Source of the DNA: a virus
DNA length: 27,943 nucleotides
Reading direction: 5' to 3' (one strand)
Virus record (IMG/VR): IMGVR_UViG_3300038549_000090
Location: 1-27,943 of that record
Under the pieces are notes generated by a model that did not search any database, was not told the origin of the DNA, and was given only the letters and a program-made list of their open reading frames with translations. The number at the start of each line of letters is the position of its first letter. Position 1 is the first letter of the stretch. Both the position numbers and the translations under genes were made by a program. Below, one piece after another: positions 5,840 to 23,841 of this stretch.

Positions 5840-5868
5840 ACCGTGCGTCCGGCGGCGGCGGTGGTCGA
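5840..5868 (-). promoter_or_regulatory. Putative leaderless promoter before the 4955-5833 gene
   Basis: The boxes are TCGACC at 5863-5868, a 17-base spacer that begins ACCGCC, and CACGGT at 5840-5845. Six bases separate the second box from GTG at 5833. No Shine-Dalgarno sequence is visible. See the finding on the shared motif. Confidence 0.5.
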
Positions 5869-5879
5869 GACGCGCACGA

Positions 5880-8399
5880 TCACGCCGGCGCGACCGTCCA
5901 GGCGAACCACGAGCCGTCGCTCGGGAACGTCTGCGGATCGCCGTCGGCGTGCACGACGCGCACGCGCGCCTGGTGCGTGCCGGCGATCGAGGTGTCCCCG
6001 CTCGCCCAGGTGTAGCGCACCTGCGCCGCGCTCGCGTCGACGACGGTCATCGCGACCGTCGCGGCGGTACCGTCGGGACGCCGCCACACCAGCGAGACGC
6101 TCTGCGCGCTCGCGAGCCCCGCGACGGGTGCGCCGTTGAGGAGCAGGGTCACGACCAGATCCGGCTCCAGATCGCCGGCGACGAGGGACACGGACACGGG
6201 GACCTCCACGGTGGCGACAGCAGGAGCGAGAGAGACGGCGCCGAGCGCGGGCGCGAGCAGGATCGTGCCGCGGCCCCACGGGCGCGAAGCCGCCACCACC
6301 GAGCCGAGCGCGGCGGCGTAGCCCGTCCACGTACTGACGATCGGATCGGCCACGAGCCGCCGGCTGCGCAGGAGCACGACGTCGAGGGTCGCGAGCGCGT
6401 ACGCGACCGGCTCCGCGGTGAGCGTGACCGTGCTCGACGCGGTCTGCACGACGAGCGCGGCGTCCGCCCCGGACCACGCGATCGCGGCGGCGTCGCCGGC
6501 GATCCGCCGCGCGATCTGGAGTCCCGCGTCGAGGCCGCCCCACGCGTAGCTCGCGGGATCGGCCACGATGCGCGCGCCCGAGTAGATCGTCGCGTCGGCG
6601 CCGCTCCACGCGTAGGCACCGTGGGCGGCGGGGAGCGTGCGTGTGGCCCGCAGCCCCGCGTCGGAGCCGGCGATCGCGAGCGACGCCGCGTCGGCGATCA
6701 GCACGCGCGTGCGGGACAGCGCGGCGTCCTGGCCGCTCCACGTCGCGACGGCGGCGTCCGCCACGATCCGGCGGGCGGCGAGCGCGCCGGCGGCGGCACC
6801 GGTCCACGCGAACGCGACGGGATCCGCGATCAGCCCGCGCCCGAGGCGCAGCGTTGCGTCGGCGCCTGCGACCGCGTAGCTCGTCGCGTCGGCCGTCACG
6901 CGCAGTCCGCGGCGCGGCGTCGCGTCGGCGCCGCTCCACGCGTAGCTCGTCGGATCCGCCACCATCGAGCGCGGTCCCTGGATCGCGACGATCGTCGTGA
7001 TCGCGCCCTGATTCGGCGTGTGGCTCCACGTGACCGAGTAGGTCCCGGCCGCGCTCACCTCGCGCGTGGCCATCACCATCGGGATCTCGCCGTACTGGTA
7101 GTTCACGAGCACTGACTGGCGCACCGTCCAGCCCGCGCTCGGCACGGACGTATACGGCGCGCCGACGCCGCTGCCGCCGGGGCCGCCCGTCCCGCTGAAC
7201 GGCGGCACGACGGGCGAGGATCCCCACCAGAACGCGACGAGCATCGCCTTGCCGTCGACGGTGACGCTGCCGCTCGTCACGGTGCCGCCCGCGCCGGTGT
7301 TGCCGATCTGCGCGAGTGCGTGCGTGATGCGCGCGCCCGCGGGCACGCCACCGACGACGGCGACGGCCATCGTGTGCTCGTCGGCGGGCGTGACGGTGCC
7401 GAGGAACTGGTGCCCGGCTCCACCGCTCATCGCCGCGCCGCCCGCGCCGCGGATCGTCCAGGTGCGCACACCCCACGACCCGCCGAAGTCGGCATAGGCC
7501 TCGTAGGCGTGCAGGGCCGAGAACGTGTTGCCACGCGAGTCCGAGACAGCCGAGGTGTCCGCGAGCCGACCGCCGACGCCGAGGATCGCGAGCGCGCCGC
7601 TCGACGGCGTGTCGAGCGTGATCGTCGCGTTGCGATTGCTGTACGGGTAGGGCTGCCAGTCGAGCCCGCTCGTCACGTACTCGAGGACGCCGCCGGGGCC
7701 GATCGTCGCGTCGGCACCACTCCACGCGTAGCTCGTCGGATCGGCGGCGAGCCGACGCCCGACGAGCAGCCCGACGTCGGCGCCGCTCCACGCATAGACG
7801 CCCGTCGGCAGCGGCGGCGCACCGGCCGCGAGATACGCGTCCTGCCCGGCCCACGCGTAGCTCGTCGCGTCGGCCGTCGCCCGCCGTCCGATCTTGAGCG
7901 CCGCGTCGGCGCCCGTGATCGCGTAGCTGGTCGCGTCCGCCGCGATCCCGTCGACGCCGTCGTCGACAAGGCCGAACGTGCCGGCGATCGTGTAGCCCGA
8001 CGTGCTCGGCACGCCGCCCGCGGTCATGGATCCGGCCGAGAAGTACGGCCCGCTCGTCGTCCACGTGAACGTGCCGTTGCCGCTCGTCGCGCCGCTGATC
8101 GTCCCGCTCTTGGCGGCCATGTCGAGCCGCACGACGATCGTCGCGCCCGCGCCCCACGTCAGCGAGCGCGAGAACACCTCGACGTCGGCCGTCGTGAACA
8201 GGCGCAGCGTCGAGTCGACGATCCAGACGCCGCCCGACGGCTGGCCGAACAGCGCATGGTAGCCGGCGTACGTCGAGCCGCTCGCCGACGAGAACGTGAA
8301 GCGGAAGCGCCAGACGCCTCCGTCCATCGTCGCGCGCGGCCACGCGCCGTCGGCGAACGTCTGCGGATTCGACGAGACGGTGAGGATCGTGGTCGCCAC
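5880..8399 (-). CDS. Repeat-rich tail-tip / receptor-binding protein with C-terminal BppU-like Ig domain
   Basis: The 839-residue product is modular. Residues 1-150 form a lectin-like beta domain (VWRFRFTFSSASGSTYAGYH and onward). Residues 154-232 hold four copies of a repeat of about 22 residues (consensus ADPTSYAWSGADATL followed by a basic RR or GRR). Residues 236-480 form a separate Gly/Thr-rich beta domain. Residues 481-700 hold ten more repeats. Residues 740-839 (DLEPDLVVTLLLNGAP, RYTWASGDTSIAGTHQARV, DGDPQTFPSDGSW) match the pattern of BppU N-terminal-type Ig domains in baseplate upper proteins. Repeats of the 'ADAxSYxxTGxDAxL' kind occur in other phage tail proteins. The start is GTG at 8399, 13 bases after the upstream stop, with no good ribosome site. 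A surface tail protein that touches the host or tail core is inferred. Confidence 0.7.
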   Translation of the reverse strand: MATTILTVSSNPQTFADGAWPRATMDGGVWRFRFTFSSASGSTYAGYHALFGQPSGGVWIVDSTLRLFTTADVEVFSRSLTWGAGATIVVRLDMAAKSGTISGATSGNGTFTWTTSGPYFSAGSMTAGGVPSTSGYTIAGTFGLVDDGVDGIAADATSYAITGADAALKIGRRATADATSYAWAGQDAYLAAGAPPLPTGVYAWSGADVGLLVGRRLAADPTSYAWSGADATIGPGGVLEYVTSGLDWQPYPYSNRNATITLDTPSSGALAILGVGGRLADTSAVSDSRGNTFSALHAYEAYADFGGSWGVRTWTIRGAGGAAMSGGAGHQFLGTVTPADEHTMAVAVVGGVPAGARITHALAQIGNTGAGGTVTSGSVTVDGKAMLVAFWWGSSPVVPPFSGTGGPGGSGVGAPYTSVPSAGWTVRQSVLVNYQYGEIPMVMATREVSAAGTYSVTWSHTPNQGAITTIVAIQGPRSMVADPTSYAWSGADATPRRGLRVTADATSYAVAGADATLRLGRGLIADPVAFAWTGAAAGALAARRIVADAAVATWSGQDAALSRTRVLIADAASLAIAGSDAGLRATRTLPAAHGAYAWSGADATIYSGARIVADPASYAWGGLDAGLQIARRIAGDAAAIAWSGADAALVVQTASSTVTLTAEPVAYALATLDVVLLRSRRLVADPIVSTWTGYAAALGSVVAASRPWGRGTILLAPALGAVSLAPAVATVEVPVSVSLVAGDLEPDLVVTLLLNGAPVAGLASAQSVSLVWRRPDGTAATVAMTVVDASAAQVRYTWASGDTSIAGTHQARVRVVHADGDPQTFPSDGSWFAWTVAPA
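6300..6959 (-). repeat. In-gene array of ten ~22-residue repeats (second block)
   Basis: This region encodes residues 481-700 of the 839-residue tail protein. Each unit begins AD(P/A)xSYAW(S/T)G(A/Q)DA and ends in a basic x-RR-(I/L)(V/A) segment, with a period of 66 bases. Later copies have drifted more than the first. Confidence 0.75.
7704..7940 (-). repeat. In-gene array of four ~22-residue repeats (first block)
   Basis: This region encodes residues 154-232 of the same protein. Its last copy (ADPTSYAWSGADAT) is identical in protein, and nearly so in DNA, to the first copy of the second block. The two copies flank the central domain. Confidence 0.75.
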
Positions 8400-8412
8400 G
8401 CGGGCGTCCGAT

Positions 8413-8826
8413 CTAGGTCAGCGTCGCGAGGGCAGCGCCGAAGTCGACGGTGAAGGTCTCGCCCGCCGCGAGGGTGACCGAAGAGCCGTAGTCGTAGTAA
8501 CCCATCAGGTGCTTCGTCGCCGTCGTGTCGTCGTAGATCACGGCGTAGCGGAACGGCCCGATCGAGCCGCCGCTCGCCGTGAACGTGACGTCCACGGCGG
8601 CGAGGGTGCCGGTGCCGCCGCTCGCCGAGTACGTGTTCTGGATGTCGACGCCGCCGGCGGGGTAGCCGTTGCCGGCGGAGATCTCGGTGATCTGCGAGAA
8701 CTGCGAGTGCGTCGCCACGTTCGGCGCCGTGTTGGTCAGCGCCAGCTTGAGCGTGTCGGTGTTGAGGTTCATGCCGCCGACGCCGAGCGCGCCGACCCAG
8801 CTCTGGTACTTGACGAACGTGGCCAT
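8413..8826 (-). CDS. Conserved small tail structural protein
   Basis: The 137-residue product follows a pattern seen in many phage structural modules. An N-terminal LNTDTLKLALTNTAPN block (residues 21-36) is followed by ITEISAGNGYPAGGVDI (46-62), then beta strands with FRYAVIYDDTT and a LAAGETFTVDF ending. Proteins of this type lie near the tail genes or act as decoration proteins; the precise role is not settled. It is the first gene after the tape measure, across a 36-base gap that carries only the two promoter boxes. The ATG at 8826 lacks a Shine-Dalgarno sequence. The next gene follows after 13 bases. Confidence 0.68.
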   Translation of the reverse strand: MATFVKYQSWVGALGVGGMNLNTDTLKLALTNTAPNVATHSQFSQITEISAGNGYPAGGVDIQNTYSASGGTGTLAAVDVTFTASGGSIGPFRYAVIYDDTTATKHLMGYYDYGSSVTLAAGETFTVDFGAALATLT

Positions 8827-8832
8827 GCGTCG

Positions 8833-8861
8833 ACCGTCGAGTACCGTCGAGCGGCGGTCGA
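8833..8861 (-). promoter_or_regulatory. Putative leaderless promoter before the 8413-8826 gene
   Basis: TCGACC (8856-8861), then a 17-base spacer starting GCCGCT, then GACGGT (8833-8838), then six bases to the ATG at 8826. The boxes fill the short gap after the tape measure stop. Confidence 0.55.
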
Positions 8862-8862
8862 A

Positions 8863-11800
8863 TCAGCGCCCCGTCAGCCGACCGCGCAGCGCGGGCGCGT
8901 GACGTCGGAGCGAGTTGAGGACGTAGGTTTCCGACGAGGATTCCATGAACGCGCGCATCCGCGACTCGTCGGAGACGTTGACGATCCGCAACGAGACCGG
9001 CGCACCGCCGCCGTCGCCGCCGCCCGCGGGGGAGCGTCCGCCGCGCGGCTCGACGGTGACCCGCTCGCCGGCGGACGCGCGGAACGCGACGACGTTGCGA
9101 TCGATCCCCGGCGCGCCGCCGACCATCCACGACCCGCCGTGCGCGAACGCCGGCAGGTCGAAGATCGTGTTCACCGCCGCGATCCCGCTCGCGATCCCCT
9201 CGCCGCCGCCACCACCACCGCCCTTGAGCGCGCCGAGCAGCAGGTTCACGCCCTCGCGGAACATGAGGCGCGTCAGGTCCGCGATCATCGCGTCGATCAT
9301 CTTCCGCCACGACGTCTCGGCGCCCGTCGCCATCGCAACGAACGCATCCTCGATCGACCCGATCGCGTTGCTGACGACTCCGGCGAGTCCGTCGCTCGCG
9401 CGCGTCACCTCGTCGAGCATCGCTGCGAAGCTGCCCTTCTGCGCCTGCGTCTTCTCGTTCGCGCTCGCGAGCTCCTGCTTGAGCCGCGCGACCTCGGCCG
9501 TGTACTCGGCGGCGGTGAGGCGTCCGTCCGCGTGGAGCCGGTACACGGTCTGGAGTCCGCGCGCGTAGTCGTAGAGCGGCGCGCGCACCTCCTCGAGCAC
9601 CTTGCGCTCGGCGTCGGCCTGCTTGGCCGCGGCGGTCTCGCGCACCAGCGCGGCGACGTTCTCGTCGGTGATCCGCGCGCCCGCGGTCGCCAGCGCGTTG
9701 CGCGCTTCGATCGCGGCGAGCTCGCGCTGGCGCTCCGTTGCGTTGAGCCGCGTGGCGTCGATCTCGGCACGCTTCGCCTCGATCAGGCGGTACAGCGCGT
9801 CGGTCTCGGCGAGGTACTTCACCTCGATCCCGCTCGTCGGCGCGACGGCGGTCGGCGTGTTGCCCACGGCCGCCGCGGGCTCGGCGTCGTAGCCGATCGC
9901 GAGATCCTGGCCACCCATCCGGCGCGGCCCGACGAGCCCCGCGCCGCGGGGCAGCTCGCCGGTGCGGGTCGGCACGGCCGCCGCGGCCTTCGCGAGCTGC
10001 TCCGCGTACTGCTGCGCGTCGATCTTCCCGGCGCGGAACAGCGCGTTGAGCTGCCCGACGGTGATCGAGTACGTGAGCAGCGGATCGCGAAGCTGCTTGA
10101 GCACGTCGACGGTGGGCAGCGACGAGTCGGCGAGCGCCCGCATCTGCTCGGCGAAGAACTTCGCGGTGATGCCGCCGTCCTTGAGCTGCGCCTTGAGATC
10201 CGCGATCGCATCGGCGCGGTGCGCGAGCTCGGTGCGGTTCTTCACCGCGAGGTCGCCGCCGACCTTGTCGGCGTACTGCGCCTCGATCTTCAAATCGCGG
10301 AGCTGCCGCTGCGCCTCGACCTCGGCGCGCGTCGGCGGGTCGAGCCAGACTCCGCGTGCGCCTCGCGCCTTCGCGACCGCGGCTTCCAGCGCGGCGATCT
10401 GATCGGCCATGGCCAGGGGACCGGTCGGCTTGCCGAGCTTGCCGAGCTGCTCGAGGTACTCGCGCACCGTAAGGTCGCCGTGCTTCATCGCGCGCGTCAG
10501 ATCGTCGACGGCATCACGCCGCTCGTACTCCTCCTTGCGCACGCGCACGACGACGGCGCCGTAGTCACGATCCGAGTTCGCCTTCTCGAGCTGCACGTCG
10601 CGCAGCGCGCGCTCGGCGTTCAGTTCGAGGCGCGAGCGCTCGATGCGCGCCGCCGCGTCGCCGCCGGCCTGACGCCAGACGAGCGCGCGCATCGCCGCCG
10701 CATCGCGGATCACGGTCGTCGCCTCGCGCTCGCGAACGTTGAGCTTCGTGATCGCCTCCTCGTTCTCGTCGATCATGCCGCGCCATCCGCGCGCAGCCTC
10801 GGCGCCGCGCCGCGCGGCCTCCTCGAACTTCTTTGCGGCGCGGTCCGCGTTGATCTTCTCGATGGCGGTCTGGAGCTGCCCCGTCTGATCGACCCACCCC
10901 TCGAAGCGCTTGCCGACGTCGAACCCGACGCTGTCGAGAATCGCGTTGCGCGTCTGGAAGCCGGCGAGGTACTGCTGCTGATCGAACTTCGGCAGTTCGA
11001 TCCCCGCCTCCGCGGCGAACCGCGCCGTCTCCTGGAGCTTGGCGATCCGCTCCTGCTCGTCGGCGACGCGCTTCGCCGCGAGGTACCGCGCGGCGTCGAA
11101 CCTCGTCCACGAGTAGCCGAGCCCCTCGTTGATCGCCTTGAGCTCGCTCATCTCGGCGGCGAGCTTGGATGCCTTCTCGGGATCGAACGTCGCCTCGGCC
11201 TGCGCCTGCATCGCGCGCAACTGCGACGTCAGATCCGTCGCGCCGTCCTCGACGTCACCGATCGCTTTCGCCATCAACAACGACGACGACGTGAACATCC
11301 CGCTGTCGCGCGCGTACTCGCCGATCGCGGTGCCCGCGTCGGCGAGCCACCCGAGCGCGTCCTTGAGCAAGCCGAGCGGGTTGGTGATGTAAAGGATCGC
11401 CTCGCCGAGAGGACCCAGGGCCTCGCGCAGACCGTCGGACAGCACGCGCGCCGCATCGAACGCGTGCCCGACGAACTCGAGCGCGAACGAGAGCGTGTCG
11501 AGAGCCATGCCGATCGTTTTGAACAGCCCCGTCGACTCGAACAGCTTTCCGATCGCGACGGTGATCTGGTCCTTGAGCATCGTCCATTGCTGGCCGAGCG
11601 TCGGCACCGTCTTCGCGAAGTCGCGATCGATCGAGGCGCCCATCTTCTGAAACGCACCGACGACGACGCTCGCCGTCAGCTTGCCCTCCGAGGACATCTC
11701 GCGCAGCTTGCCGCGCGTGACGCCGAGGGCCTGCGTGAGCACCTGCGCGACGTAGGGCAGGTTCTCCATGATCGATCGGAACTCGTCGCCCTGCAGCCGC

Positions 11801-12804
11801 CCCGACGAGAGCGCCTGCCCAAGCTGCATCACACCCGCGCTCGCCTCGCTCGCGCTCGGGCCGCTGAGCTGCACCGACTTGTTCACACGCGTCGTCAGCG
11901 CGTCGAGCTCGGCGGAGCTCAGGCTCATTTCGCGCGTCGCGGCGCGGAAGCGAACGTAGGCGCTCGTCGTGGCCTCGACGGAGGAGCGGGTCGCGGTCGC
12001 GATGTCGCGCATCCGACCGAACGTCGCCGACACGCTCTCGCCTTCGCTCGCGACGGCGCGGAGCTTGTTCTGCATCTCCTGGTAGGCGTTGGCGGCGTCG
12101 AGCACCTCGCGCGCGCCGTACGCCGCCGCGGCGCTCAGCAGCGCACCCTTGCCCGCGGCGAGCAGGTTCATGCCGCCGCCGCCACCACCGCCACCACCGC
12201 CCGCGGGACCTCCCTTGCTGCGCGCGAGCTCGGAGCTGAGCTTCGACGCCTGCGCGCGGTACTCCTCGAGCGTGATCGCGCCGCGACGTGCGAGGCTGTT
12301 GAGCGTCTCGAGGTCGGCGGTGAAGCGCTGCGTGGGACCGCGGATCGCCTCGAGCATCGCCTGCTCGCGCTGGATCGCGGCCGCGACGCCCTCGAACGCG
12401 AGCCCGGCGCGGCCGAGCCCGCTGACGAGGCGCCCGTGCTCCGTCGCGGCGCCGGCGGCGTTGCCCCAGAGGACCGCGAGCGCGCTCGCGCCGCGGAACG
12501 ACGCCGCGGCGACCTGCCCGAGCGTGTCGGCGGTGTAGCGGCCCACGGTGCCGAAGCGCTCGAGCCCCGTGGCCCCGCGCGACGCGGCGCCGGAAGCCCT
12601 GGCGAGCGCGTCGAGCGCGACGGTCGCGCGATTCGCGTCCGAGGCGAAGCGCCCGAGCGCGTCGCGGCCCCGCGTCGCGCCGAGTTCGATCCCGCTGCCG
12701 ACCCGGGCGCCCGCGGTCTCGGCGGCCTCGAGCTTGCCGACGAGGCGCTCGACGCCCGTCTCGGCGCTGCGCGTGTCGCCCGTGATCCTGATCGTGAAGC
12801 TCAT
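8863..12804 (-). CDS. Tail tape measure protein
   Basis: The 1313-residue, mostly helical protein sets tail length and is threaded through the tail tube. Residues 230-410 carry the tape-measure N-terminal domain signature (VMQLGQALSSGRLQGDEF at 325-342, SIMENLPYVAQVLTQALG at 344-361). A ten-Gly run lies at 202-211 before a hydrophobic helix, and another Gly run at about 1195-1201. The C-terminus (FAHGGSWMVGGAPGIDRNVV, then SAGERVTV) is the usual tape measure tail end. Five helical 'GxITxxEYxxQ' motifs recur between residues 172 and 1108. At about 0.15 nm per residue, a known rule of thumb, the tail would be near 200 nm. The ATG overlaps the stop of the upstream chaperone frame (ATGA), with GAGGAGGA as ribosome site. 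Confidence 0.93.
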   Translation of the reverse strand: MSFTIRITGDTRSAETGVERLVGKLEAAETAGARVGSGIELGATRGRDALGRFASDANRATVALDALARASGAASRGATGLERFGTVGRYTADTLGQVAAASFRGASALAVLWGNAAGAATEHGRLVSGLGRAGLAFEGVAAAIQREQAMLEAIRGPTQRFTADLETLNSLARRGAITLEEYRAQASKLSSELARSKGGPAGGGGGGGGGGMNLLAAGKGALLSAAAAYGAREVLDAANAYQEMQNKLRAVASEGESVSATFGRMRDIATATRSSVEATTSAYVRFRAATREMSLSSAELDALTTRVNKSVQLSGPSASEASAGVMQLGQALSSGRLQGDEFRSIMENLPYVAQVLTQALGVTRGKLREMSSEGKLTASVVVGAFQKMGASIDRDFAKTVPTLGQQWTMLKDQITVAIGKLFESTGLFKTIGMALDTLSFALEFVGHAFDAARVLSDGLREALGPLGEAILYITNPLGLLKDALGWLADAGTAIGEYARDSGMFTSSSLLMAKAIGDVEDGATDLTSQLRAMQAQAEATFDPEKASKLAAEMSELKAINEGLGYSWTRFDAARYLAAKRVADEQERIAKLQETARFAAEAGIELPKFDQQQYLAGFQTRNAILDSVGFDVGKRFEGWVDQTGQLQTAIEKINADRAAKKFEEAARRGAEAARGWRGMIDENEEAITKLNVREREATTVIRDAAAMRALVWRQAGGDAAARIERSRLELNAERALRDVQLEKANSDRDYGAVVVRVRKEEYERRDAVDDLTRAMKHGDLTVREYLEQLGKLGKPTGPLAMADQIAALEAAVAKARGARGVWLDPPTRAEVEAQRQLRDLKIEAQYADKVGGDLAVKNRTELAHRADAIADLKAQLKDGGITAKFFAEQMRALADSSLPTVDVLKQLRDPLLTYSITVGQLNALFRAGKIDAQQYAEQLAKAAAAVPTRTGELPRGAGLVGPRRMGGQDLAIGYDAEPAAAVGNTPTAVAPTSGIEVKYLAETDALYRLIEAKRAEIDATRLNATERQRELAAIEARNALATAGARITDENVAALVRETAAAKQADAERKVLEEVRAPLYDYARGLQTVYRLHADGRLTAAEYTAEVARLKQELASANEKTQAQKGSFAAMLDEVTRASDGLAGVVSNAIGSIEDAFVAMATGAETSWRKMIDAMIADLTRLMFREGVNLLLGALKGGGGGGGEGIASGIAAVNTIFDLPAFAHGGSWMVGGAPGIDRNVVAFRASAGERVTVEPRGGRSPAGGGDGGGAPVSLRIVNVSDESRMRAFMESSSETYVLNSLRRHAPALRGRLTGR

Positions 12805-13690: not shown

Positions 13691-13697
13691 GGCGACG

Positions 13698-13726
13698 ACG
13701 ATCGCGGCCGCGTCGGCGGCGGTCGA
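13698..13726 (-). promoter_or_regulatory. Putative leaderless promoter before the tail chaperone
   Basis: TCGACC (13721-13726), then a 17-base spacer beginning GCCGCC, then GATCGT (13698-13703), then seven bases to ATG at 13690. Confidence 0.55.
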
Positions 13727-13777
13727 AACCCTTACGGGGCCGGCGGTGAGGGCCGCGGCCGGCGCGCGGTGACCCAA

Positions 13778-13798: not shown

Positions 13799-13816
13799 CC
13801 CTCGACAGCGTGGCGA

Positions 13817-15323: not shown

Positions 15324-15352
15324 ACGATCGCGATCGGCGCGGCGGCGGTCGA
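15324..15352 (-). promoter_or_regulatory. Putative leaderless promoter before the tail tube gene
   Basis: TCGACC (15347-15352), then a 17-base spacer beginning GCCGCC, then GATCGT (15324-15329), then seven bases to ATG at 15316. It lies in the 52-base gap after the tail terminator gene. Confidence 0.55.
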
Positions 15353-15368
15353 ATCGCTACGCGAGGCG

Positions 15369-16192: not shown

Positions 16193-16199
16193 GCGCTCG

Positions 16200-16228
16200 A
16201 CGGTCGGTCGGCGCGGAGCGGCGGTCAA
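16200..16228 (-). promoter_or_regulatory. Putative leaderless promoter before the gp10-like gene
   Basis: TTGACC (16223-16228), the best match to the classic -35 sequence, then 17 bases starting GCCGCT, then GACCGT (16200-16205), then seven bases to GTG at 16192. Confidence 0.58.
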
Positions 16229-16230
16229 GG

Positions 16231-16455: not shown

Positions 16456-17546
16456 GGCGTGACCAGACCCGAGAAGTACGTGCCGCAGGTGGGCGTCACG
16501 ATCTCGAAGCCCTGGAACACGTCGACCACGTGCGTCCACGAGCCGAGCGGACCCGCGAGCTCGTCGCGCACGCGCCGCACGCTGACACCGTCGGCGACGG
16601 CGGCCGTCCAGACGGGGCGACAGAACGCCGGCGGCTGCGGCGTCGAGCGCGTCATCGCCGCCACCGCGTCGGTCTGGCCGATCGACGGGTTCACGAACAG
16701 CAGCGCGTCGTCGGCCGGAACGATCGGCGTGTTGGTGTACACGCTCTGATCGCTGGTCTTCGCCGCGCTGTTGTAGACGGCGGAGCTCGCTCCGCACCAC
16801 GCGATGCCGAGGAGCCGCGCGATCTCGTCCATGCTCGCCTGCCGCGCCATCCCGACGATGGCATTGCCGATCGCGCCGCCGGCGAGGCCGACGATCTGCG
16901 ACTTCACCTTTGCCGAGTTGCGCAGCTTGTGCGCGAGGCGGTTGCCGAACGCGATCCCCATCTGCGACGGGTCGGCGCCGGTGAGCAGCGAGAGGATCCG
17001 GATCTCGTCGGTGAACGCCTCGATCGGATCCGCCGACGCGTTGTCGACGTAGAGCCGGTTCTTCGCCGTGGCGGATCCGGTCGTGTCGGAGCTCGCGCCC
17101 GTGACGACCCGATACCAGTTGCCCGCGACGAACAGCTTCGCCGCCATGCGCCGCTCGAGGTGGAGCAGCGCCTTGTAGGCGAGGAGCGACGGGATCATCT
17201 CCGACGGATCGATCTCGACGTCGCTGGCCGCGGCCTCGGCGTCGTTCAGATCGTACGCGAGCGAGCGCGCGTCCGTCGAGTAGGTCTGGTACGAGTGCCG
17301 CCACCCGGCCTTCGCGGGCCGCGACTCGGGGCCGCGCACCTGCATCTCGTCGCGGTTGATGTCCGCGATCGAGAAGACCGGGTACGTGCCGCTCGGCTTG
17401 AGGACGGGCAGCCGCGGCACCATCGTCGTCGCGATGAACCGGGCGTCCGACTGCATGCGCCGCACGGCGACGCCGGTCATCGGGACATCGACGTAGCGCT
17501 GACCGTAGAGCGCCGACGTCTTGCGGAGGTTCTGCAGGATGCTCAT
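16452..17546 (-). CDS. Major capsid protein
   Basis: The 364-residue product matches the pattern of a group of phage capsid proteins with probable HK97 fold. It has an N-terminal segment with RFIATTMVPRLPVLKPSGTY, then FSIADINRDEMQVRGPESRP, a YSTDARSLAYDLNDAE segment near residues 91-106, and the helix LLAYKALLHLERRMAAKLF (about 122-140). The rest includes a DEIRILSLLTG helix and a final beta region (DVFQGFEIVTPTCGTYFSG). A GAGGGAG ribosome site lies 6 bases before the ATG at 17546. A perfect 16-base palindrome lies just upstream. It follows the protease-scaffold and decoration genes, as is usual for capsid modules. Confidence 0.88.
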   Translation of the reverse strand: MSILQNLRKTSALYGQRYVDVPMTGVAVRRMQSDARFIATTMVPRLPVLKPSGTYPVFSIADINRDEMQVRGPESRPAKAGWRHSYQTYSTDARSLAYDLNDAEAAASDVEIDPSEMIPSLLAYKALLHLERRMAAKLFVAGNWYRVVTGASSDTTGSATAKNRLYVDNASADPIEAFTDEIRILSLLTGADPSQMGIAFGNRLAHKLRNSAKVKSQIVGLAGGAIGNAIVGMARQASMDEIARLLGIAWCGASSAVYNSAAKTSDQSVYTNTPIVPADDALLFVNPSIGQTDAVAAMTRSTPQPPAFCRPVWTAAVADGVSVRRVRDELAGPLGSWTHVVDVFQGFEIVTPTCGTYFSGLVTP

Positions 17547-17563
17547 GTCGTTCTCCCTCGTCG

Positions 17564-17579
17564 GCGCGCCTAGGCGCGC
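17564..17579 (-). other. Perfect 16-base palindrome between decoration and capsid genes
   Basis: GCGCGCCTAGGCGCGC contains the TAG stop of the upstream gene and lies 17 bases before the capsid ATG. In RNA it could form a short GC hairpin that shields or punctuates the message. It could also be chance in GC-rich DNA. Confidence 0.45.
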
Positions 17580-18319
17580 TTGATCCCGTAGACGAAGACC
17601 TTGCAGGCGGCGTTGCCGCCGGCCTTCGCGATCGACGCGCGCAGCGTGCCGCCCGCGTCGATCGTGCTCGCGGCGTCGTCGATCGTCGTCGCGCGCGCGA
17701 GGGTCGTGTCGGCGATGTTCAGCGACAGCGCGCCGGTGATCGCCGTCGACGCGTTCTTGATCGTGACGGTGTTGGCCGCGCCGCCGGCCGTCGACGTCTT
17801 CATCGCGACGACGTCGATCACCTCGATCTTGTCGGTGATGACGAGGTCGTAGTCGGCGCTCGCCGCATCGGCGATCGAGAACACGTGCACGACGGGGGTC
17901 CCCGGCGCGACGTTGTTGTCGGCGACGTTCGACGCGATCGGGGCCGCGCTCGACGGGAACCGGATCCGGCGGTACTCGCCGGCGGCACCGGCGGCGTCGA
18001 CGGCGTAGGCGTTGACGACGTCGCCGGCGCCGGCCGTGACGGCCCGCCCCTGTGCGTCGGTCGTCAGCGCCGCGTTGGCCGCGTAGGCCGCGCCCGCCTC
18101 GACGATCGGCAGGCGATCGATGTAGAGATCGACCGCGTCGCCGGCGGCGGGAGTGCGCTTGTAGTGCGCGCCGATCACGCCGCCGGCGCGCTCGCCCGCG
18201 ACGGAGCAGACGTTGATCCCGCTCGACGTGAACTTGCCGAAGCGGAAGAGCTTCGCCGAAAGGTCGGCTGCCGCGGGGAGCCCGACCGGGATGGTGCTGG
18301 TGTCGATGTTCGCGCTCAT
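17570..18319 (-). CDS. Probable capsid decoration or head-stabilising protein (DUF2190-like)
   Basis: The 249-residue product is rich in Ala, Gly, Thr and Val, with few charged residues and alternating strands. The N-terminal half (DAVDLYIDRLPIVEAGAAY, then AVTAGAGDVVNAYAVDAAGA) resembles DUF2190-type capsid-associated proteins, which often read 'G..v.v......a.aG....G......a.......A...aaAG'. The second half is another beta-rich region (VIDVVAMKTSTAGGAANTVT) that ends in VFVYGIKRA. The ATG at 18319 has a GGAAGGA ribosome site 11 bases before it. It sits between the protease-scaffold and capsid genes, the usual site for a decoration protein. Confidence 0.68.
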   Translation of the reverse strand: MSANIDTSTIPVGLPAAADLSAKLFRFGKFTSSGINVCSVAGERAGGVIGAHYKRTPAAGDAVDLYIDRLPIVEAGAAYAANAALTTDAQGRAVTAGAGDVVNAYAVDAAGAAGEYRRIRFPSSAAPIASNVADNNVAPGTPVVHVFSIADAASADYDLVITDKIEVIDVVAMKTSTAGGAANTVTIKNASTAITGALSLNIADTTLARATTIDDAASTIDAGGTLRASIAKAGGNAACKVFVYGIKRA

Positions 18320-18339
18320 GATCTCTGGTCCTTCCTGCG

Positions 18340-19902
18340 CTACGACGTGAAGCCCTGCGCGCGCTCGTACGCCTGGTAGAGGCGCTTGCCCTCCGACGTC
18401 TTGAGCGCGCGCTCCATCGCCTCGTTCTCGTCGGCGATCTTGTTGTCGGCGGCAAACTTCTCGACGAAGTTCGCCAGGTCGACGCCCGCGTTGCCGCTCG
18501 CGGACGCGGCGCCGAAGTCGGCGCCGTCGACGGTGCGCGCGTGGCCCGGGTTGTGGCCGTGCGCGCGCATCGTCTCGCCGATCGCGGCGTCGGCGGCCTT
18601 GAGCGCCTCGACGGCCGTCTTGCGCACCGCCTCGTCGGCGATCGCCTCGACGGCGCGGAGCAGCGGGACGCGGGCGTCCTTCGCGAAGGACGCGAGCGTC
18701 GCGTCGGCGCGCTTCGCGAGCTCGACCGCCTCGCGCGCGTCGCGCTCCGCCTTGGCGATCTTGGTCGCCTCGTCGGCCCGCTTCGCGAGCTGCAGCGTCA
18801 CCTCGCCGTGGCTCTTGCGGATCTCGAGACCGTCGCTCGTCGTGTACACGACGGCATCGGCGGCCTTGGCCGCGACGACCGCGTTCTCGCGATCGGCGGG
18901 CGTCATCGCGTCGAACACGTCGACGGTGGCCCCGGTGAGGGTGGCGCGGTGCGCCTTCTGGGCGTCGGTCATGCTCGCCAGCGCGAGCGCGGCGGCGAGC
19001 TGCTTCTTGAGGCTGGCGATTTCGTCCATGCTCGCGACCTTCGAGGTCGGCTGAGCGGTGGTCGAATTCGCCGTCACGACGAGCCGCGACGACACCGCGG
19101 CGCTGGTCTGCGCGATCTCGTGCGTGTGGTTCGCGACCTCGCCGATCACGACGACCCCGCCGTCGCGGATCCACGGGTGGCTGTGCCAGCCGCCCTCTTC
19201 GACGCCCGGCAGGTTCTCCGAGCTCGTGAACCCGCTCGCCGCGTCGTCGATCCCGTAGACGATGTGCGTGTGACCCTGCACAGCCGACGTCAGCGCCGCG
19301 GTCTTGCCGACGTGCGCGGCGACGAGCGCGGCGTTGCTCGCGCGCGCTTCGCCGCTCGCCGACGACGCCGCCGTCTTCGTCGACGGAGCGGGTGCGCGCC
19401 ATCCGAGTCCCTCGATCGAGACCCCCGTGTACTCGCCGCTCTTGATCTTCGCGAGCACGTCGGGCGCGGGCTTGATCCCGACCATGAACCCCGACTTGCC
19501 GCCGGTGTCGAAGCCGAACGCCTTCGCGATCTCCGCGGTCATCGGCATGCCGAAGACCACGGTCCCCGTCGCGTCGCCGTCGTGCATCTCGTCGGAGGCG
19601 CGACACGTCGACATGAAGTCGGCGCAGACCTTCACGACGTCGGTCTCGACGATGTGATCGCCGTGGAGGTCGTAGTACGGCTCGCCGTTCACGGTGGACG
19701 TGAACGCCCAGAAGAACGCCACGCCGATCTCGTCGTCGACCTTCACGACGCGCGCGACGGTCGACCCGCTCGCCTCGGCCGCGCCGTTGACGCCGCGCTT
19801 GATCAGCAGCGTCGTCGCGTGCTCCTGCGCGGGGACGTCGACGACGGAGACGAACGAGAGCTTCGCGAGCTGGAGCTTGTGCTTGGGCTTGGGGGCGGCC
19901 AT
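18340..19902 (-). CDS. Prohead protease (XkdF-like) fused to capsid scaffold
   Basis: The 520-residue product joins two functions. Residues 15-165 follow the XkdF-type serine protease: YYDLHGDHI (76-84), the SDEMHDGD block with likely catalytic His107, and KSGEYTGVSIEG (154-165) with likely catalytic Ser162. Residues 205-262 form an unusual His-rich stretch (GHTHIVYG, GGWHSHPWI, NHTHEI). Residues 290-470 are helical and coiled-coil-like (MDEIASLKKQLAAALAL, KRADEATKIAKAERDAREA), typical of scaffold cores, and the end is a short helical domain (LYQAYERAQG). In such phages the protease cleaves the scaffold and capsid N-termini during head maturation. The ATG at 19902 carries promoter boxes and has no Shine-Dalgarno. 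Confidence 0.8.
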   Translation of the reverse strand: MAAPKPKHKLQLAKLSFVSVVDVPAQEHATTLLIKRGVNGAAEASGSTVARVVKVDDEIGVAFFWAFTSTVNGEPYYDLHGDHIVETDVVKVCADFMSTCRASDEMHDGDATGTVVFGMPMTAEIAKAFGFDTGGKSGFMVGIKPAPDVLAKIKSGEYTGVSIEGLGWRAPAPSTKTAASSASGEARASNAALVAAHVGKTAALTSAVQGHTHIVYGIDDAASGFTSSENLPGVEEGGWHSHPWIRDGGVVVIGEVANHTHEIAQTSAAVSSRLVVTANSTTAQPTSKVASMDEIASLKKQLAAALALASMTDAQKAHRATLTGATVDVFDAMTPADRENAVVAAKAADAVVYTTSDGLEIRKSHGEVTLQLAKRADEATKIAKAERDAREAVELAKRADATLASFAKDARVPLLRAVEAIADEAVRKTAVEALKAADAAIGETMRAHGHNPGHARTVDGADFGAASASGNAGVDLANFVEKFAADNKIADENEAMERALKTSEGKRLYQAYERAQGFTS

Positions 19903-19908
19903 GGCGCG

Positions 19909-19937
19909 ACGGTGGCGCCCGCTACGGCGGAGGTCGA
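19909..19937 (-). promoter_or_regulatory. Putative leaderless promoter before the protease-scaffold gene
   Basis: TCGACC (19932-19937), then 17 bases starting TCCGCC, then CACCGT (19909-19914), then six bases to ATG at 19902. Its -35-like box abuts that of a divergent promoter at 19939. Confidence 0.55.
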
Positions 19938-19938
19938 T

Positions 19939-19967
19939 TCGCCCGCCGCGGCACTGCGCGCGAGACG
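19939..19967 (+). promoter_or_regulatory. Putative divergent leaderless promoter before the secreted-protein gene
   Basis: TCGCCC (19939-19944), then 17 bases starting GCCGCG, then GAGACG (19962-19967), then six bases to ATG at 19974. It is a weaker match (one change in each key box), but strand, spacing and distance fit the others. With the minus-strand box it forms GGTCGA-T-TCGCCC, a near palindrome. Confidence 0.42.
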
Positions 19968-19973
19968 AGCGGG

Positions 19974-20333
19974 ATGCGTTCCCTCCTCGCGATCACGATC
20001 CTTCTCGTCGTCTCCTCCGTCGCCGTCGCGCTGCCGCCCGGCGAGGGCGACCCCGAGCCGTGCGACTACGACGACGGGTGCGGCTCGCCCGGCGACGCCG
20101 ACGAGCTCCCCGACGCGCCGCCGCCGAGCTGCTTCACGCCGATCCTGTGGACGCAGGACTGCGCGCACTGGGGGATCCCGCAGCCAGAGATCGCCTGCTA
20201 CCTCGACGGTCCGTACGCGTGCTGCCACACCGCCTTCGGCTACCTCGAGTGCATCGAGCTGCACGACGATCGCTACGACGAGCCGCTCTGCCCCGGGCTG
20301 CCGGGTCGCCCGTTCTGGCCCTGCACGCCGTAG
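19974..20333 (+). CDS. Small Cys-rich secreted protein, inserted against the structural operon (moron)
   Basis: The 119-residue product has a Sec-type signal peptide (MRSLLAITILLVVSSVAVA, with cleavage likely after AVA at residue 19). The mature part is acidic, rich in Pro, and has ten Cys, including a CC pair (YACCHT). No lipobox is visible. I do not recognise a named family. The gene starts 71 bases from the divergent protease-scaffold gene, and its TAG lies two bases from the convergent MuF-like gene stop. Length, orientation and end spacing are the same as for the lipoprotein gene at 3003-3362. An exported product that alters the host envelope during lysogeny is a possible role, but only from context. 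Confidence 0.72.
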   Translation: MRSLLAITILLVVSSVAVALPPGEGDPEPCDYDDGCGSPGDADELPDAPPPSCFTPILWTQDCAHWGIPQPEIACYLDGPYACCHTAFGYLECIELHDDRYDEPLCPGLPGRPFWPCTP

Positions 20334-20335
20334 GG

Positions 20336-21283
20336 CTACGCAAGGCGCAGCCGCGTCGTGCGCTTGCAGCGGCAGTTGGCCCGCTCCTCGATCGGCGCGA
20401 GCGGATCGCCCGGGAAGCGCAGCAGCGCGCCGCTGGGCGACGCGAACGGCTCGCCGTGACCGCGCTCCTGCCCGGACATCTCCGCGTGCGTGTCGCGCGT
20501 GCGCGCGCCCGGCGTCGCGAGCCAGGTGTGGACGAGCCGTGCAGCGTCGACCCCGCCGGCGTCCACGGCTTGCTGGAGCCCCTCGTCGGCGCCCTGGTGC
20601 ACGGCGGCCAACGCCTCGGTGCGCGCGATCGTGCGCGCGCGAAACGCGACGTAGCGCTCGTGGTAGCGCGCGACCATCTCGTCGATCTTCGACGACGAGA
20701 GCGCCTCGCCCGCCGCCGCGGCGCGACGGAGCGCTCGGTCGTAGCGGCGATCGCGCAGGTCGCGCGCGAGTGCGGCGGCGGCGTCACCCTCCTCGAGCGC
20801 GCGACGGTAAGTGAGCACGTGGCCGGCCTGCGTGGGCGTCAGGCCGATCGTGTCGTGGAGGTCGCGTGCGATCGAGACCGGGTTCTCGCCGCGGGCCACG
20901 CCGTGGAGCAGCACGACGCGCACGACCTCCCGCGCCTCCGACGTGATCCCGCCGCGGAGCTCGAGCGCGGTGCGGCGCACCCACGCCGCGGCCCGGGCGT
21001 TGCCGGCGTCGTAGCTGATCAGCCGATCGCCGATCTGCGCGTCGAGCCAGGCCGCCGCGGCCTCGGCGCCGCGCCCGTAGCCCGCCACGACCCGGGACGC
21101 CACCCGCGCCGCGGCGTCCTCGATCCCGAGCAGGATCGCGGCGGGCGCAGAGCTCGTGGCGATCCGATCGGCGAGCTCGCCCGGCGGGTTCTGCGCGACG
21201 ATCCAGCGCGCGGCGTCGCGCCACTCCACGCCAAGCTCGCGCTCGACGGCATCGAGGACCCGCTCGATCTCGTCGTCGCTCAC
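20336..21283 (-). CDS. MuF-like minor head / head morphogenesis protein (SPP1 gp7 family)
   Basis: The 315-residue product has the C-terminal MuF-type signature: ARTIARTEALAAVHQGADEG (residues 217-236), then HTWLATPGARTRDTHAEMSG and a GALLRFPGDPLAPIEERANC end with CRCKR. The N-terminal 200 residues are helical (DEIERVLDAVERELGVEW; GNARAAAWVRRTALELRGGI). Such proteins sit inside the head near the portal and help assembly or are ejected with DNA. The GTG at 21283 lies four bases after the upstream stop, with a GAGGA ribosome site. It follows portal and connector genes, as in Mu- and SPP1-like heads. Confidence 0.85.
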   Translation of the reverse strand: MSDDEIERVLDAVERELGVEWRDAARWIVAQNPPGELADRIATSSAPAAILLGIEDAAARVASRVVAGYGRGAEAAAAWLDAQIGDRLISYDAGNARAAAWVRRTALELRGGITSEAREVVRVVLLHGVARGENPVSIARDLHDTIGLTPTQAGHVLTYRRALEEGDAAAALARDLRDRRYDRALRRAAAAGEALSSSKIDEMVARYHERYVAFRARTIARTEALAAVHQGADEGLQQAVDAGGVDAARLVHTWLATPGARTRDTHAEMSGQERGHGEPFASPSGALLRFPGDPLAPIEERANCRCKRTTRLRLA

Positions 21284-21287
21284 GTCC

Positions 21288-21701
21288 TCAGGCCCTCACG
21301 TGGCAGACATAGACGGCGCGCGCCGCGTCGGTCTGCACGCCGAGCCCGCCGCCCTGCGATCCCGCGTCGCCGACGATCCGGTACGTCACGCCGCCGAGCG
21401 TGATCTTGTCGGCCGGGGCCGGCGTGACGCCCGCGGGCAGCGTGCTGCCGAGGATCGAGATCCGCGCATCGCGCGCGCGCACGATCGTGCCTCGCTCGGC
21501 CAGGGCGGCGACCTCGCGCGCGTCGAAGCTGGCGATCCAGCCCGCGACGACGTGGCTCGTCTCGGTCGTGGTCGTGCCGGCGCTCGCGATCGGGCCGCGG
21601 GCGCCGGTCGTGACCTTGATCAACACGACCTCCTCGTCGACGAACGGCGCGAGGCTGTCGCCGACGAGATCCGCGAGCGTGCCGTCCGTGATCAGCCCCA
21701 T
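21288..21701 (-). CDS. Putative head-tail neck / stopper protein
   Basis: The 137-residue product begins MGLITDGTLADLVGDSLAPF and is mostly beta-like. A conserved-looking end (KITLGGVTYRIVGDAGSQGG, then AARAVYVCHVRA) is reminiscent of small neck proteins in which a 'vtlgGxxYrI' strand precedes a DxaxAvYvc segment. Its ATG overlaps the upstream connector stop (TGATG). Position between connector and MuF-like genes supports a head-tail joining role, but the family is not certain. Confidence 0.6.
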   Translation of the reverse strand: MGLITDGTLADLVGDSLAPFVDEEVVLIKVTTGARGPIASAGTTTTETSHVVAGWIASFDAREVAALAERGTIVRARDARISILGSTLPAGVTPAPADKITLGGVTYRIVGDAGSQGGGLGVQTDAARAVYVCHVRA

Positions 21702-22312
21702 CAGAAGGGCCCCGTCCGGTCGTGCGCGTCGCAGTCGTCGAACGAGGACGCGCGGCTCGTGCCTCCTGCGTAGGCGCCGCCGCTCACGCCGCTGGCCGTG
21801 GCGACGCTGCCCCCGAGGAGCGGCCCGAGCGCGCGCGTGATCCCGATCGGCAGCACGGGCGCGGTCCCGTCGGCGGCGGAGGTCGGCCGCCAGAACTCGA
21901 CCGTGGGGGCGCCTTCGCCGCCGACGCTCTTGATGTTCGACCCCGTGTCGAGCTTGCTGGCGGCGTCTGCATCGACGGCGAGTGCGGCCACCGCCTCGAA
22001 GGTCGCGCGCGCGACGCGCTGGAGCTGCTCCAGCGCCGTCATCGTGGACCCGTCGGGGAGCGTCACGTCGCTGCGCGGGACCGCGAGCGTCGTCCCGGCC
22101 GCGTAGGTCGCGGACCCCGCGAAGCTGAGCGCGTCGATCCATCGCGTCGCTGCGACGAGCAGCCGCTTGCGCTCGTCGCCGCCCGCAGAGAGCGCACGGT
22201 ACCGCGCGGCGCCCTTACCGACGGCGGCGAGCAGGTAGTCGTCGCACGCCGCGAGTCCGCCGTAGACCTCGACGGCCGCGCTCGCACCGCTGAGCTGCAC
22301 CGAGTACGTCAT
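21701..22312 (-). CDS. Head-tail connector protein (DnaT-like fold family)
   Basis: The 203-residue product has the pattern of the phage connector group often annotated 'DnaT-like ssDNA-binding'. It has an N-terminal 'Y..L..cDdYL' segment (AACDDYLLAAVGKGAARYRA), then LLVAATRWIDALSFAGS (residues 52-68), LAVPRSDVTLPDGS (78-91) and an Ala-rich helix (RVARATFEAVAALAVD). These form the adaptor ring below the portal. The C-terminus has a Gly/Ser/Ala-rich extension (SVATASGVSGGAYAGGTS). The ATG overlaps the portal stop (ATGA) after an AAGAGGAG ribosome site. Confidence 0.7.
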   Translation of the reverse strand: MTYSVQLSGASAAVEVYGGLAACDDYLLAAVGKGAARYRALSAGGDERKRLLVAATRWIDALSFAGSATYAAGTTLAVPRSDVTLPDGSTMTALEQLQRVARATFEAVAALAVDADAASKLDTGSNIKSVGGEGAPTVEFWRPTSAADGTAPVLPIGITRALGPLLGGSVATASGVSGGAYAGGTSRASSFDDCDAHDRTGPF

Positions 22313-23805
22313 CGCTTGCTCCTCTTCTGCGGCGGCACCGCGGGTGGTTCCTCGTCGTCGAGCTGCACGTCCTGCTCTCCCTTCGCCGGATCGGGCGGTG
22401 TGCCGGGCACCGGCGCGCGCGGCAGCTCGATCTCGTCGGGCAGCTCGGCGAGCTTGGGCAGGCGGAGCCGCTCGAGCAGCGCGTTGCCGATCGTCTCGCG
22501 ATCGTCGGGGCCGAGCGTCACGCCCGCGCGCGCCATCGCCGCGAGCGCCTCGCACGCCTCGAGCACGGTCTGCGCCGAGGGCGGCTCGGGGTAGACGCGC
22601 GGGCAGTAGTCGTCGGGATCGAGCCCGTTGAGCCGGCAGATCCGCGCCGCGGGGCCGGCGGTCGCGGCCGCGCCGATCGCCTCGAGCGTACCGTTGAGGA
22701 TCGCGCCGAACATCGTCGTCTTGTCGACGTGCACGCTGCGCGCACCCTCGCCGTCGCCCATCAGCAGCCACTCCGCGCCGAGGAGGCGCGCGATCGCACG
22801 ATCGCGTGCCTCCATCGCGCTGCGCACCTCGCGCTGGCCATGCGCGGCGGAGGTCAGCAACTGGAAGTCCCACTTCGGCACCGACGACACGGAGCGCTTC
22901 TCGTCGGTGCCGAGGTACGGCGCCGAGTCGAGCGTCAGCGCGAGCTCGGGGTTGCGGGCGTGGTTCGAGGCGAAGTCGAGCACGGACTGGATCCGCGCGC
23001 GCACGTAGCTCTCGACGCGCTTGTCGCGACGATCGCAGCCGAGATCCTGCGCCGCCTGCTCGACGAGCGACGCGATCGGAACGCGCGCGACAGGGATCCC
23101 GTGGAGGCTGAACTCGAAACCCCAGCCCTCGAGCTGATCGAAGCGCCGGTATCGCTCGACGGGCTCGACGAGGTGGCGCAGCACGCCCACGCCATCGGGG
23201 GTGTCGCCGAGCAGGCTGTCGACGACGTATAGCAGCCGCTCGCGATGCAAATAGAACGCACCACCGCCGCTCGTCTCCTGCCAGGCGCCGCGCCAAGGCG
23301 AATGCTCGTCGGGCTTGTCCCAGCGCGCGATCGTGTGCTGCGGGCGGTGATCGAGGCGCGCCGTGACGAGACGTCCGTCGCTGCGGCGGCGCAGCACCTG
23401 CTCGAAGATCGCGAAGCCGCGGAACTTCGCGCCGAAGCCCGCCTTCGCGACGACCTGCCCCCACGGCAGATCCATGCGCGCATCGATCAGGCCCTCGCGG
23501 ACCAGATCCGTCGCCTGCACCGCGCGCCGGCCCCCGCGGGGCGACTCCTCGACGCACCACTTCGTTCCGGCGAGCAGCGCGCCCCACACGCGCGCCATCG
23601 CCGCGACGGTGAGGTGCGTGGCCACGGCGTTGTCGTACGTGGTCCACTTCTGCGCGCCGGCCAGCGCGGGATGCCGCTCCTGCCCGCCGCCGAAGTACAG
23701 CCCGCCGAACGACGACACGCCGTCGCTGCCCTCAGGCTTCGTCGGCGCGGGCTCTGCCGGCGGCGTCGAGGAGAACCAGCCGACGAGTGACTTGAGCAGG
23801 CCCAT
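22309..23805 (-). CDS. Portal protein (DUF935 / Mu gp29-like)
   Basis: The 498-residue product forms the dodecameric portal for DNA entry. The N-terminal region (WTTYDNAVATHLTVAAMARV) and the core follow the Mu gp29-type pattern, with KFRGFAIFEQVLRR (residues 129-142), LLYVVDSLLGDTPDGVGVLR, PKWDFQLLTSAAHG (302-315) and DRAIARLLGAEWLLMGDG (328-345). A helical stem and C-terminal clip region follow, and the end is acidic then basic (EEPPAVPPQKRSKR). The ATG at 23805 is 38 bases after the large terminase stop, and promoter boxes occupy that gap. No good Shine-Dalgarno is present. The gene heads a coupled block of portal, connector, neck and MuF-like genes. Confidence 0.82.
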   Translation of the reverse strand: MGLLKSLVGWFSSTPPAEPAPTKPEGSDGVSSFGGLYFGGGQERHPALAGAQKWTTYDNAVATHLTVAAMARVWGALLAGTKWCVEESPRGGRRAVQATDLVREGLIDARMDLPWGQVVAKAGFGAKFRGFAIFEQVLRRRSDGRLVTARLDHRPQHTIARWDKPDEHSPWRGAWQETSGGGAFYLHRERLLYVVDSLLGDTPDGVGVLRHLVEPVERYRRFDQLEGWGFEFSLHGIPVARVPIASLVEQAAQDLGCDRRDKRVESYVRARIQSVLDFASNHARNPELALTLDSAPYLGTDEKRSVSSVPKWDFQLLTSAAHGQREVRSAMEARDRAIARLLGAEWLLMGDGEGARSVHVDKTTMFGAILNGTLEAIGAAATAGPAARICRLNGLDPDDYCPRVYPEPPSAQTVLEACEALAAMARAGVTLGPDDRETIGNALLERLRLPKLAELPDEIELPRAPVPGTPPDPAKGEQDVQLDDEEPPAVPPQKRSKR

Positions 23806-23812
23806 CGCGCCG

Positions 23813-23841
23813 AGGCTCGTCGGCGCGTCGGCGGTGGTCTA
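23813..23841 (-). promoter_or_regulatory. Putative leaderless promoter before the portal gene
   Basis: TAGACC (23836-23841), then 17 bases starting ACCGCC, then GAGCCT (23813-23818), then seven bases to ATG at 23805. It begins just after the terminase stop. Confidence 0.5.

Follow-up and report, generated by a model that had tools for sequence, protein, structure and literature searches.

Among phages, the cI gene of lambda, when transcribed from PRM, gives a leaderless messenger RNA (mRNA), and the late genes of T4 are served by promoters that consist of a -10-type box and are read with a phage sigma factor and clamp. The start-associated sequences of cluster K mycobacteriophages consist of one short motif resembling a Shine-Dalgarno (SD) sequence, and the scaffold protein Nu3 of lambda arises by internal translation from an in-frame start within the protease gene C. 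In the virus record IMGVR_UViG_3300038549_000090 (27,943 bases, 68-77% GC per kilobase, analysed over its whole length and hereafter called the window), genes of a tailed-phage structural module on the minus strand are preceded, at a constant offset from start codons without an SD sequence, by two boxes that most probably are sigma70-type promoters making leaderless or nearly leaderless mRNAs. As in lambda cI, the result would be a leaderless phage mRNA, but cI is a single regulatory gene, whereas here an array extends over structural genes. As with the T4 late promoters, one class is repeated through structural genes; unlike these, the sites possess two sigma70-like boxes at the start codon and a sigma region 2 is not found in the phage records searched for it. 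The start-associated sequences of cluster K are likewise a conserved motif a few bases before many phage start codons, but the sites described here have two spaced promoter-like boxes and no SD.

In cellular genomes, leaderless genes of Actinobacteria, Deinococcus-Thermus and some delta-proteobacteria carry the sequence TANNNT about 12 bp upstream of the start codon, according to the available text of a survey that, by its own stated limit, sees only Pribnow-like promoters (PMC3160421). The -10-like box of the phage sites similarly ends 6-7 nt before the start codon of genes without an SD, but, compared with the genes as that text presents them, it is mostly (G/C)ANNNT, is combined with a strict -35 box TCG(A/C)CC and is located in a phage structural module. 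For Deinococcus, the accessible part of a further article describes a -10 element adjacent to the open reading frame (ORF) that was experimentally shown to be a promoter giving leaderless mRNA, with no occurrence of the word phage in the main text (PMC12340547); these promoters are likewise placed just before the ORF, but differ in having TANNNT. That phage transcripts are often leaderless is stated in passing in what is accessible of a third article (PMC5312081). A literature search, with most subscription journals outside its coverage, gave no report of such a promoter array in a phage. Leaderless promoters and repeated late promoters are already known; what appears, from the sequence, to be new is their combination over structural genes, together with the shift of both hexamers and a probable promoter that recurs nested in the protease gene.

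Two-box sites ahead of gene starts

The seven minus-strand sites that a preliminary description of this DNA had listed, upstream of the starts 5833, 8826, 13690, 15316, 16192, 19902 and 23805, are all present, with a spacer of exactly 17 bases between the hexamers at each of the seven and a second box that always ends 6 or 7 bases ahead of ATG or GTG; their consensus is T(C/T/A)GACC, 17 bases, (G/C)ANNNT. From the right, the candidate promoters are TAGACC-N17-GAGCCT (23813..23841), 7 nt before ATG 23805 of the Mu-like portal gene; TCGACC-N17-CACCGT (19909..19937), 6 nt before ATG 19902 of the XkdF-like protease gene; TTGACC-N17-GACCGT (16200..16228), 7 nt before GTG 16192 of a tail completion or Neck1-like gene; TCGACC-N17-GATCGT twice, 7 nt before ATG 15316 of the tail tube gene (15324..15352) and 7 nt before ATG 13690 of the gene after the tail tube (13698..13726); TCGACC-N17-GACGGT (8833..8861), 6 nt before ATG 8826 of the gene after the tape measure; and TCGACC-N17-CACGGT (5840..5868), 6 nt before GTG 5833. 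Of the eighth site listed, on the plus strand (TCGCCC-N17-GAGACG, 19939..19967, 6 nt before ATG 19974 of a small secreted-protein-like gene), the two boxes, the 17-base spacer and the distance of 6 stand, but the final T of box 2 is absent and the site is weak and doubtful.

A simple word list flags an SD at none of these eight sites, in agreement with the preliminary description. According to gene calls from a purpose-made simple codon-model caller, the seven motif-bearing genes are preceded by gaps of 36-126 bases, without a listed SD word in any of them, and the other minus-strand genes overlap the preceding gene or lie at most 29 bases from it, with or without an SD. Exceptions to this close spacing are the gene at 2955, which is divergent and has AGGGGG, and two uncertain calls near the right edge, 26805 and 27715.

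Related phages were collected by terminase alignment, which gave L007 (62% identical, 4.8 kb) and G001 (59% identical, a record of 62,396 bases), and by portal alignment, which added G381 (20,275 bases), L204 and L201; the portal protein as the sole query found no relative. Recurrence of the motif upstream of genes in related phages, a check named in the preliminary description, is observed as arrays in G001 and G381, where TCG(A/C)CC-N17-GANNNT-N5-7-RTG stands before seven and five called genes, respectively. In a held-out test on these two phages, 13 box-1 matches at -33 to -37 were picked blind to box 2, and A is found at box-2 position 2 (-11) in 12 of the 13 (P about 4e-9 against local base content), T at position 6 (-7) in 12 of 13 (P about 1e-9, likewise) and G at position 1 in 12 of 13; the only failure is the site before the G001 terminase.

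Several sites occupy corresponding places. The protease genes of G001 (54701), G381 (4895) and L204 (6174, with a spacer of 18) have a site at the same place, and sites also precede the homologues of the tail tube gene (G001 49969 and G381 9255, with 33% and 34% identity to the window) and of the gene after the tail tube (G001 48410 and G381 10809, where the matched part is 31% and 36% identical). A site also precedes the gene after the tape measure in the window, in G001 (44749) and in G381 (14639), the proteins of G001 and G381 being not similar to the window protein by BLASTP; similarity is also not found between the protein of window 5833 and that of G001 41849. In L007, the portal gene is preceded by TCGACC-N18-TACCGT-N8-ATG.

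Among the loci examined gene by gene, the array is limited to close relatives, and it is not seen in the inspected stretches of L001/G004, L087, L095-L099 and L113; for most of the more distant terminase loci, coverage was at most by a scan with the pattern, which took in 86 loci. G004, a more distant phage with 42% terminase identity, possesses TTGACA-N17-TAACCT-N7-ATG in four near-identical copies before four genes (27129-28348), a block that reads as a repeated leaderless-type promoter with canonical hexamers. In G001, TCGCCC-N17-GATGCT (35895-35923, minus strand) is located about 60 nt upstream of the gene start 35835 and is possibly a further promoter of the class with a longer leader.

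The background comparison that the preliminary description had proposed favours the motif: the loose pattern T[CTA]G[AC]CC-N17-NANNNT-N5-8-RTG has 9 matches in the window, against a mean of 0.17 and a maximum of 2 in 100 dinucleotide shuffles. With altered spacers the window gives no match at 12-16 and 18-21 and one each at 22 and 23. The nine matches are the seven minus-strand sites, an in-frame site inside the protease gene and a match at 11681 (plus strand, inside the tape-measure gene) that is probably due to chance. In G001 the same pattern also has 9 matches (shuffle mean 0.83, maximum 4). Each box clusters on its own in the 69 upstream regions (13 from the window, 47 from G001 and 9 from G381) whose gap measures 25 bases or more, box 1 at -35 (12), -36 (7) and -34 (2) and NANNNT at -12 (15) and -13 (9); the highest single-position counts in 1000 base shuffles are 3 for box 1 and 10 for NANNNT, with means of 1.45 and 5.2.

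The nested site in the protease gene

The in-frame match, which was absent from the list in the preliminary description, is TCGACC-N17-GAAGGT (19037..19065, minus strand), a candidate internal promoter of the protease gene; 7 nt past its second box follows an in-frame ATG (19029-19027), codon 292 of this gene. A nested site is present in all four phages with a readable gene, namely the window, G001, G381 and L204, the last three having spacers of 17, 17 and 18 and the second boxes TACCGT, TACCGT and CACGGT, respectively. Their in-frame starts follow 19 nt (G001), 13 nt (G381, ATG) or 22 nt (G381, GTG) and 27 nt (L204) past the boxes, and between boxes and start stands an SD, AGGAG in G001, AAGGAG in G381 and GGAG in L204; the AAGGAG of G381 abuts the ATG, and its position suits the GTG better. 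The protein alignment turns well conserved just past the nested in-frame starts. In 88,242 coding bases of the window, G001 and G381, the pattern has 7 in-gene matches, 3 of which are the nested sites.

G001 encodes the protease part in a gene of its own, which lies upstream and has its own site, and the nested site is located in the following gene. The XkdF-like protease and the middle-plus-C-terminal part are in this phage two overlapping genes (52969-54701), while they form a single gene in the window, G381 and L204, and the putative nested promoter stays with the C-terminal part despite the split.

The predicted nested product of the window, a putative scaffold of 229 amino acids (18340..19029, minus strand), aligns with those of the relatives from their in-frame starts. 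Its structural model is mainly helical, with a predicted local distance difference test score of 75.7 and a low predicted template modelling score of 0.32, and a Pfam search gives no match at E 0.1. The nested C-terminal product is probably the scaffold, a role suggested by its position between an XkdF-type protease and the capsid gene. The gene 17570-18319, before the capsid gene, has a match to a PHROG named head scaffolding protein (5.9e-9) and by this match may compete with the protease C-terminus for the scaffold role. The arrangement recalls C and Nu3 of lambda, likewise a protease gene with a nested in-frame product, but differs from it by the recurrent promoter-like site inside the gene.

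Candidate promoters, rival signals and the probable host

Proteins of the sigma70 family read two boxes at this spacing with A at -11 and T at -7. The phage sites combine such a geometry (16-18 bp spacing, A-11, T-7) with that of leaderless genes, as some 6-7 nt separate the end of the -10 box from the start codon. Among 23 aligned sites, which were selected with the A and the T required, the invariant -10 A is preceded by C (21), then G (19), and box-1 position 4 is occupied by A (14) or C (9). In G001, 20 nt with an intervening AAAGGAG separate the boxes from the start of gene 55053, and, as in the nested sites of the relatives, the boxes are thus not fixed to the start codon and an SD is present when there is room, which argues for promoters and against translation signals. 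The leaderless promoters suggested in the preliminary description are supported by the relatives, by the sites parted from the start with an SD between and by the canonical hexamers in G004.

A number of observations, on the other hand, weigh against sigma70-type promoters of this kind. A scan for the sigma70 consensus finds no site in 4500-24400 (0.5 expected), because both boxes depart from TTGACA/TATAAT; in 19 phage sites, position -12 is occupied by G (17) or C (2) and never by T, and 21 of the 23 aligned sites carry C at box-1 position 2. The portal-region sites of G001, L201 and G381 have a spacer of 18 nt and the second box TAGCGT and lie 9-11 nt from the start, the one in G001 preceding a small ORF ahead of the portal gene. 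A box 1 at the right distance is without a good box 2 at G001 61638 and L204 2823; of the 29 genes that follow gaps of 25-70, 8 are without a box 1 and also without any SD word of the list. The pattern has one further, unexplained match per protease gene in the window, in G001 and in L204, and 2 of the 9 loose-pattern matches of G001 are located away from called gene starts. Lastly, in G089 and G080, two genomes from the probable host group, TCG(A/C)CC is joined to NANNNT at the same offset in none of 372 upstream regions.

As to this host group, a pattern-based scan of species genomes gives a related terminase at seven loci, the best in a metagenome-assembled genome (MAG) titled Deltaproteobacteria bacterium OFTM73 (G003, 38%) and the others alphaproteobacterial, in a Chthonomonas MAG and in an unnamed bacterium. 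G001 encodes a protein of 146 amino acids (L169 8282-8722, minus strand) with a Sigma70_r4 domain (PF04545, 30.5 bits, cut-off 24.1). This region-4 protein has a strong match, defined as a best E of 1e-16 or lower, in 57 of 95 genomes of the phylum of the OFTM73 MAG, mostly with 54-69% identity, and weak matches only, as other sigma factors could give, in 29 more of the 95, G003 included. Searches with this protein gave nothing in 50,697 phage records and a single weak match in 72,556 plasmids; it may be a captured host gene and possible transcription regulator. Because of the matches of the region-4 protein and the best terminase locus, this phylum, which appears to be Myxococcota, is the probable host group.

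Summed over the 95 genomes, TTGAC-N18-TANNNT-N6/7-ATG has 333 occurrences, and its reversed counterpart, a control that does not keep codon bias, has 45. In G089 (73.2% GC, 380 kb), TANNNT peaks at -12 in 19 of 200 upstream regions, as does, more weakly, GANNNT (9), and in G080 (68.6% GC, 320 kb) a weak TANNNT peak comprises 5 at -12 and 5 at -13 of 162. At -12/-13 of G089, (G/C)ANNNT is found in 19 and TANNNT in 25 of 206 upstream regions, some after TTG(A/C)C. The pattern TCGMCC-N17-GANNNT-N5/7-ATG is present in 92 of the 95 genomes in excess of its reversed control, a figure in which coding and upstream sequence are pooled; many of the listed matches resemble in-frame codons by eye, and the control does not keep codon bias. 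Leaderless genes occur in 8 of 33 delta-proteobacterial genomes, at a mean of 15.8%, as far as the available text of the survey reports (PMC3160421), and this survey together with the G089 peak suggests that leaderless TANNNT promoters at the same offset are ordinary for such hosts.

The high GC content of the window and the variants permitted in the preliminary description could raise the suspicion that the motif arises by chance or from the base composition of a GC-rich genome repetitive in CG; this reading is contradicted by the shuffle tests, the spacer scan and the held-out relatives and has a practically negligible probability. The preliminary description had further hinted at a -10 element of the extracytoplasmic function (ECF) type, from a trailing CGTCG in several copies; box 2 shows CGTC in 4 of the 8 sites in the window but in only 3 of the 15 sites of the relatives, with A-11 and T-7 constant, and the -35 box is unlike the GGAAC type that most ECF factors recognize. 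On the frequency of CGTC in the relatives against the constant A-11 and T-7, ECF-sigma promoters were rejected and are considered very improbable. Slightly more room is left for boxes that act on translation within the mRNA, as an enhancer or as a site bound by a protein in place of the SD, with transcription arriving from far upstream; in favour of this, the motif has a fixed distance from start codons without an SD. In four cases, however, the boxes are 13-27 nt from the start and an SD is present there; the alignment of 15 sites gives 0 pairs of a common RNA structure, so that the RNA-structure version was rejected; and the spacing, A-11 and T-7 match a sigma70 promoter, canonical hexamers being found at the same offset in G004. 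A translation signal is therefore judged improbable.

A different question is which polymerase holoenzyme reads the sites. That a dedicated factor, either an alternative host sigma factor or a host RNA polymerase altered by a phage protein such as the region-4 protein of G001, does so and not the host main sigma factor alone would be in line with TCG(A/C)CC and (G/C)ANNNT being consistently unlike the TTGAC and TANNNT of the sampled genomes, with their absence as a pair from the G089 and G080 upstream regions and with the Sigma70_r4 protein encoded by G001. Against this, T at -12 is found in the nested and portal-region sites of the relatives (TACCGT, TAGCGT), so both forms may be one class; (G/C)ANNNT stands beside TANNNT in the upstream regions of G089; the strict phage pattern precedes ATG in most genomes of the phylum, above its reversed control, with coding and upstream sequence pooled; and sigma region 2 (PF04542) is found in none of G000, G001 and G002, records that may be incomplete. 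The region-4 family is moreover common in the phylum, and G004 has a region-4 match yet is without the array. From TACCGT and TAGCGT in the relatives and (G/C)ANNNT in G089 it follows that a separate sigma factor is not required; a dedicated factor is rather unlikely, and the G001 region-4 protein may at most be a lead to the cause of the array.

With sigma70-type promoters for leaderless mRNAs as the preferred reading, the proposed mechanism is as follows. A promoter with the -35 box TCG(A/C)CC, a fixed 17-bp spacer and the -10 box (G/C)ANNNT, whose A and T fall at -11 and -7, would direct RNA polymerase to start transcription at the start codon or within about two bases of it. The boxes, their spacing, fixed offset and recurrence and the cases with a leader and an SD are directly visible in the DNA; the start of RNA polymerase, the exact 5' ends, the late timing and the start of ribosomes on such messages are what we infer from it. 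As the promoter is repeated before gap-preceded genes and gene groups of the structural module, transcription of this module would yield several mRNAs, leaderless or nearly so, with the genes within each group starting by overlap, close spacing or an SD, and the copy inside the protease gene would give a separate mRNA for the C-terminal, probably scaffold, part. Terminator-like sites number 4, against 4.1 expected.

A more specific proposal combines a lineage-specific late promoter class, TCG(A/C)CC-N16-CGANNNT, dedicated to leaderless translation, with a host RNA polymerase that is re-aimed by a phage factor, perhaps the G001 region-4 protein, and with a separate scaffold mRNA through which transcription sets the ratio of scaffold to protease; in this full form it is speculative and unlikely to hold. 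If transcript mapping agrees with the preferred reading, the structural module would be expressed as a series of leaderless messages and not as one long leadered operon. It would then serve as a natural test case for the translation of abundant leaderless mRNA in a group where such mRNA has received little attention, and would show how transcription can set the dose of a product nested in a protease gene. For gene callers, the motif can be used as a start signal at genes of such phages that lack an SD.

Gene content of the fragment and side observations

The structural module on the minus strand of the window comprises the large terminase (23844-25721), the Mu-like portal (22309-23805; PF06074), a MuF-like head gene (20336-21283), the XkdF-like protease with a long C-terminal part (18340-19902; PF14550), the major head protein (about 16452-17546), the tail tube (13817-15316) and the tape measure (8863-12804). 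The remaining genes of the module are those for tail completion, tail terminator and tail chaperone and tail genes up to the left end. The window contains no tRNAs and no Rfam matches at the gathering score.

G001 has an integrase match and may therefore be temperate. Near 1744, 3346 and 17745 of this record, half-sites resembling CGCCTAGGCGA are located upstream of a few gene starts, as seen by eye, in a manner reminiscent of repressor operators.

On the plus strand of the window, 3003-3362 and 19974-20333 encode two small cysteine-containing proteins with signal-like N-termini by eye, for neither of which Pfam gives a match. Upstream of the first of these, a weak CTGGCG-17-TACCAT (2967..2995, plus strand), 7 nt before the ATG of ORF 3003, was recognized by eye as a possible host-type leaderless promoter. 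Both genes oppose the direction of the structural module and are moron-like, and G001 likewise possesses small plus-strand genes, at 35964 and 50029.

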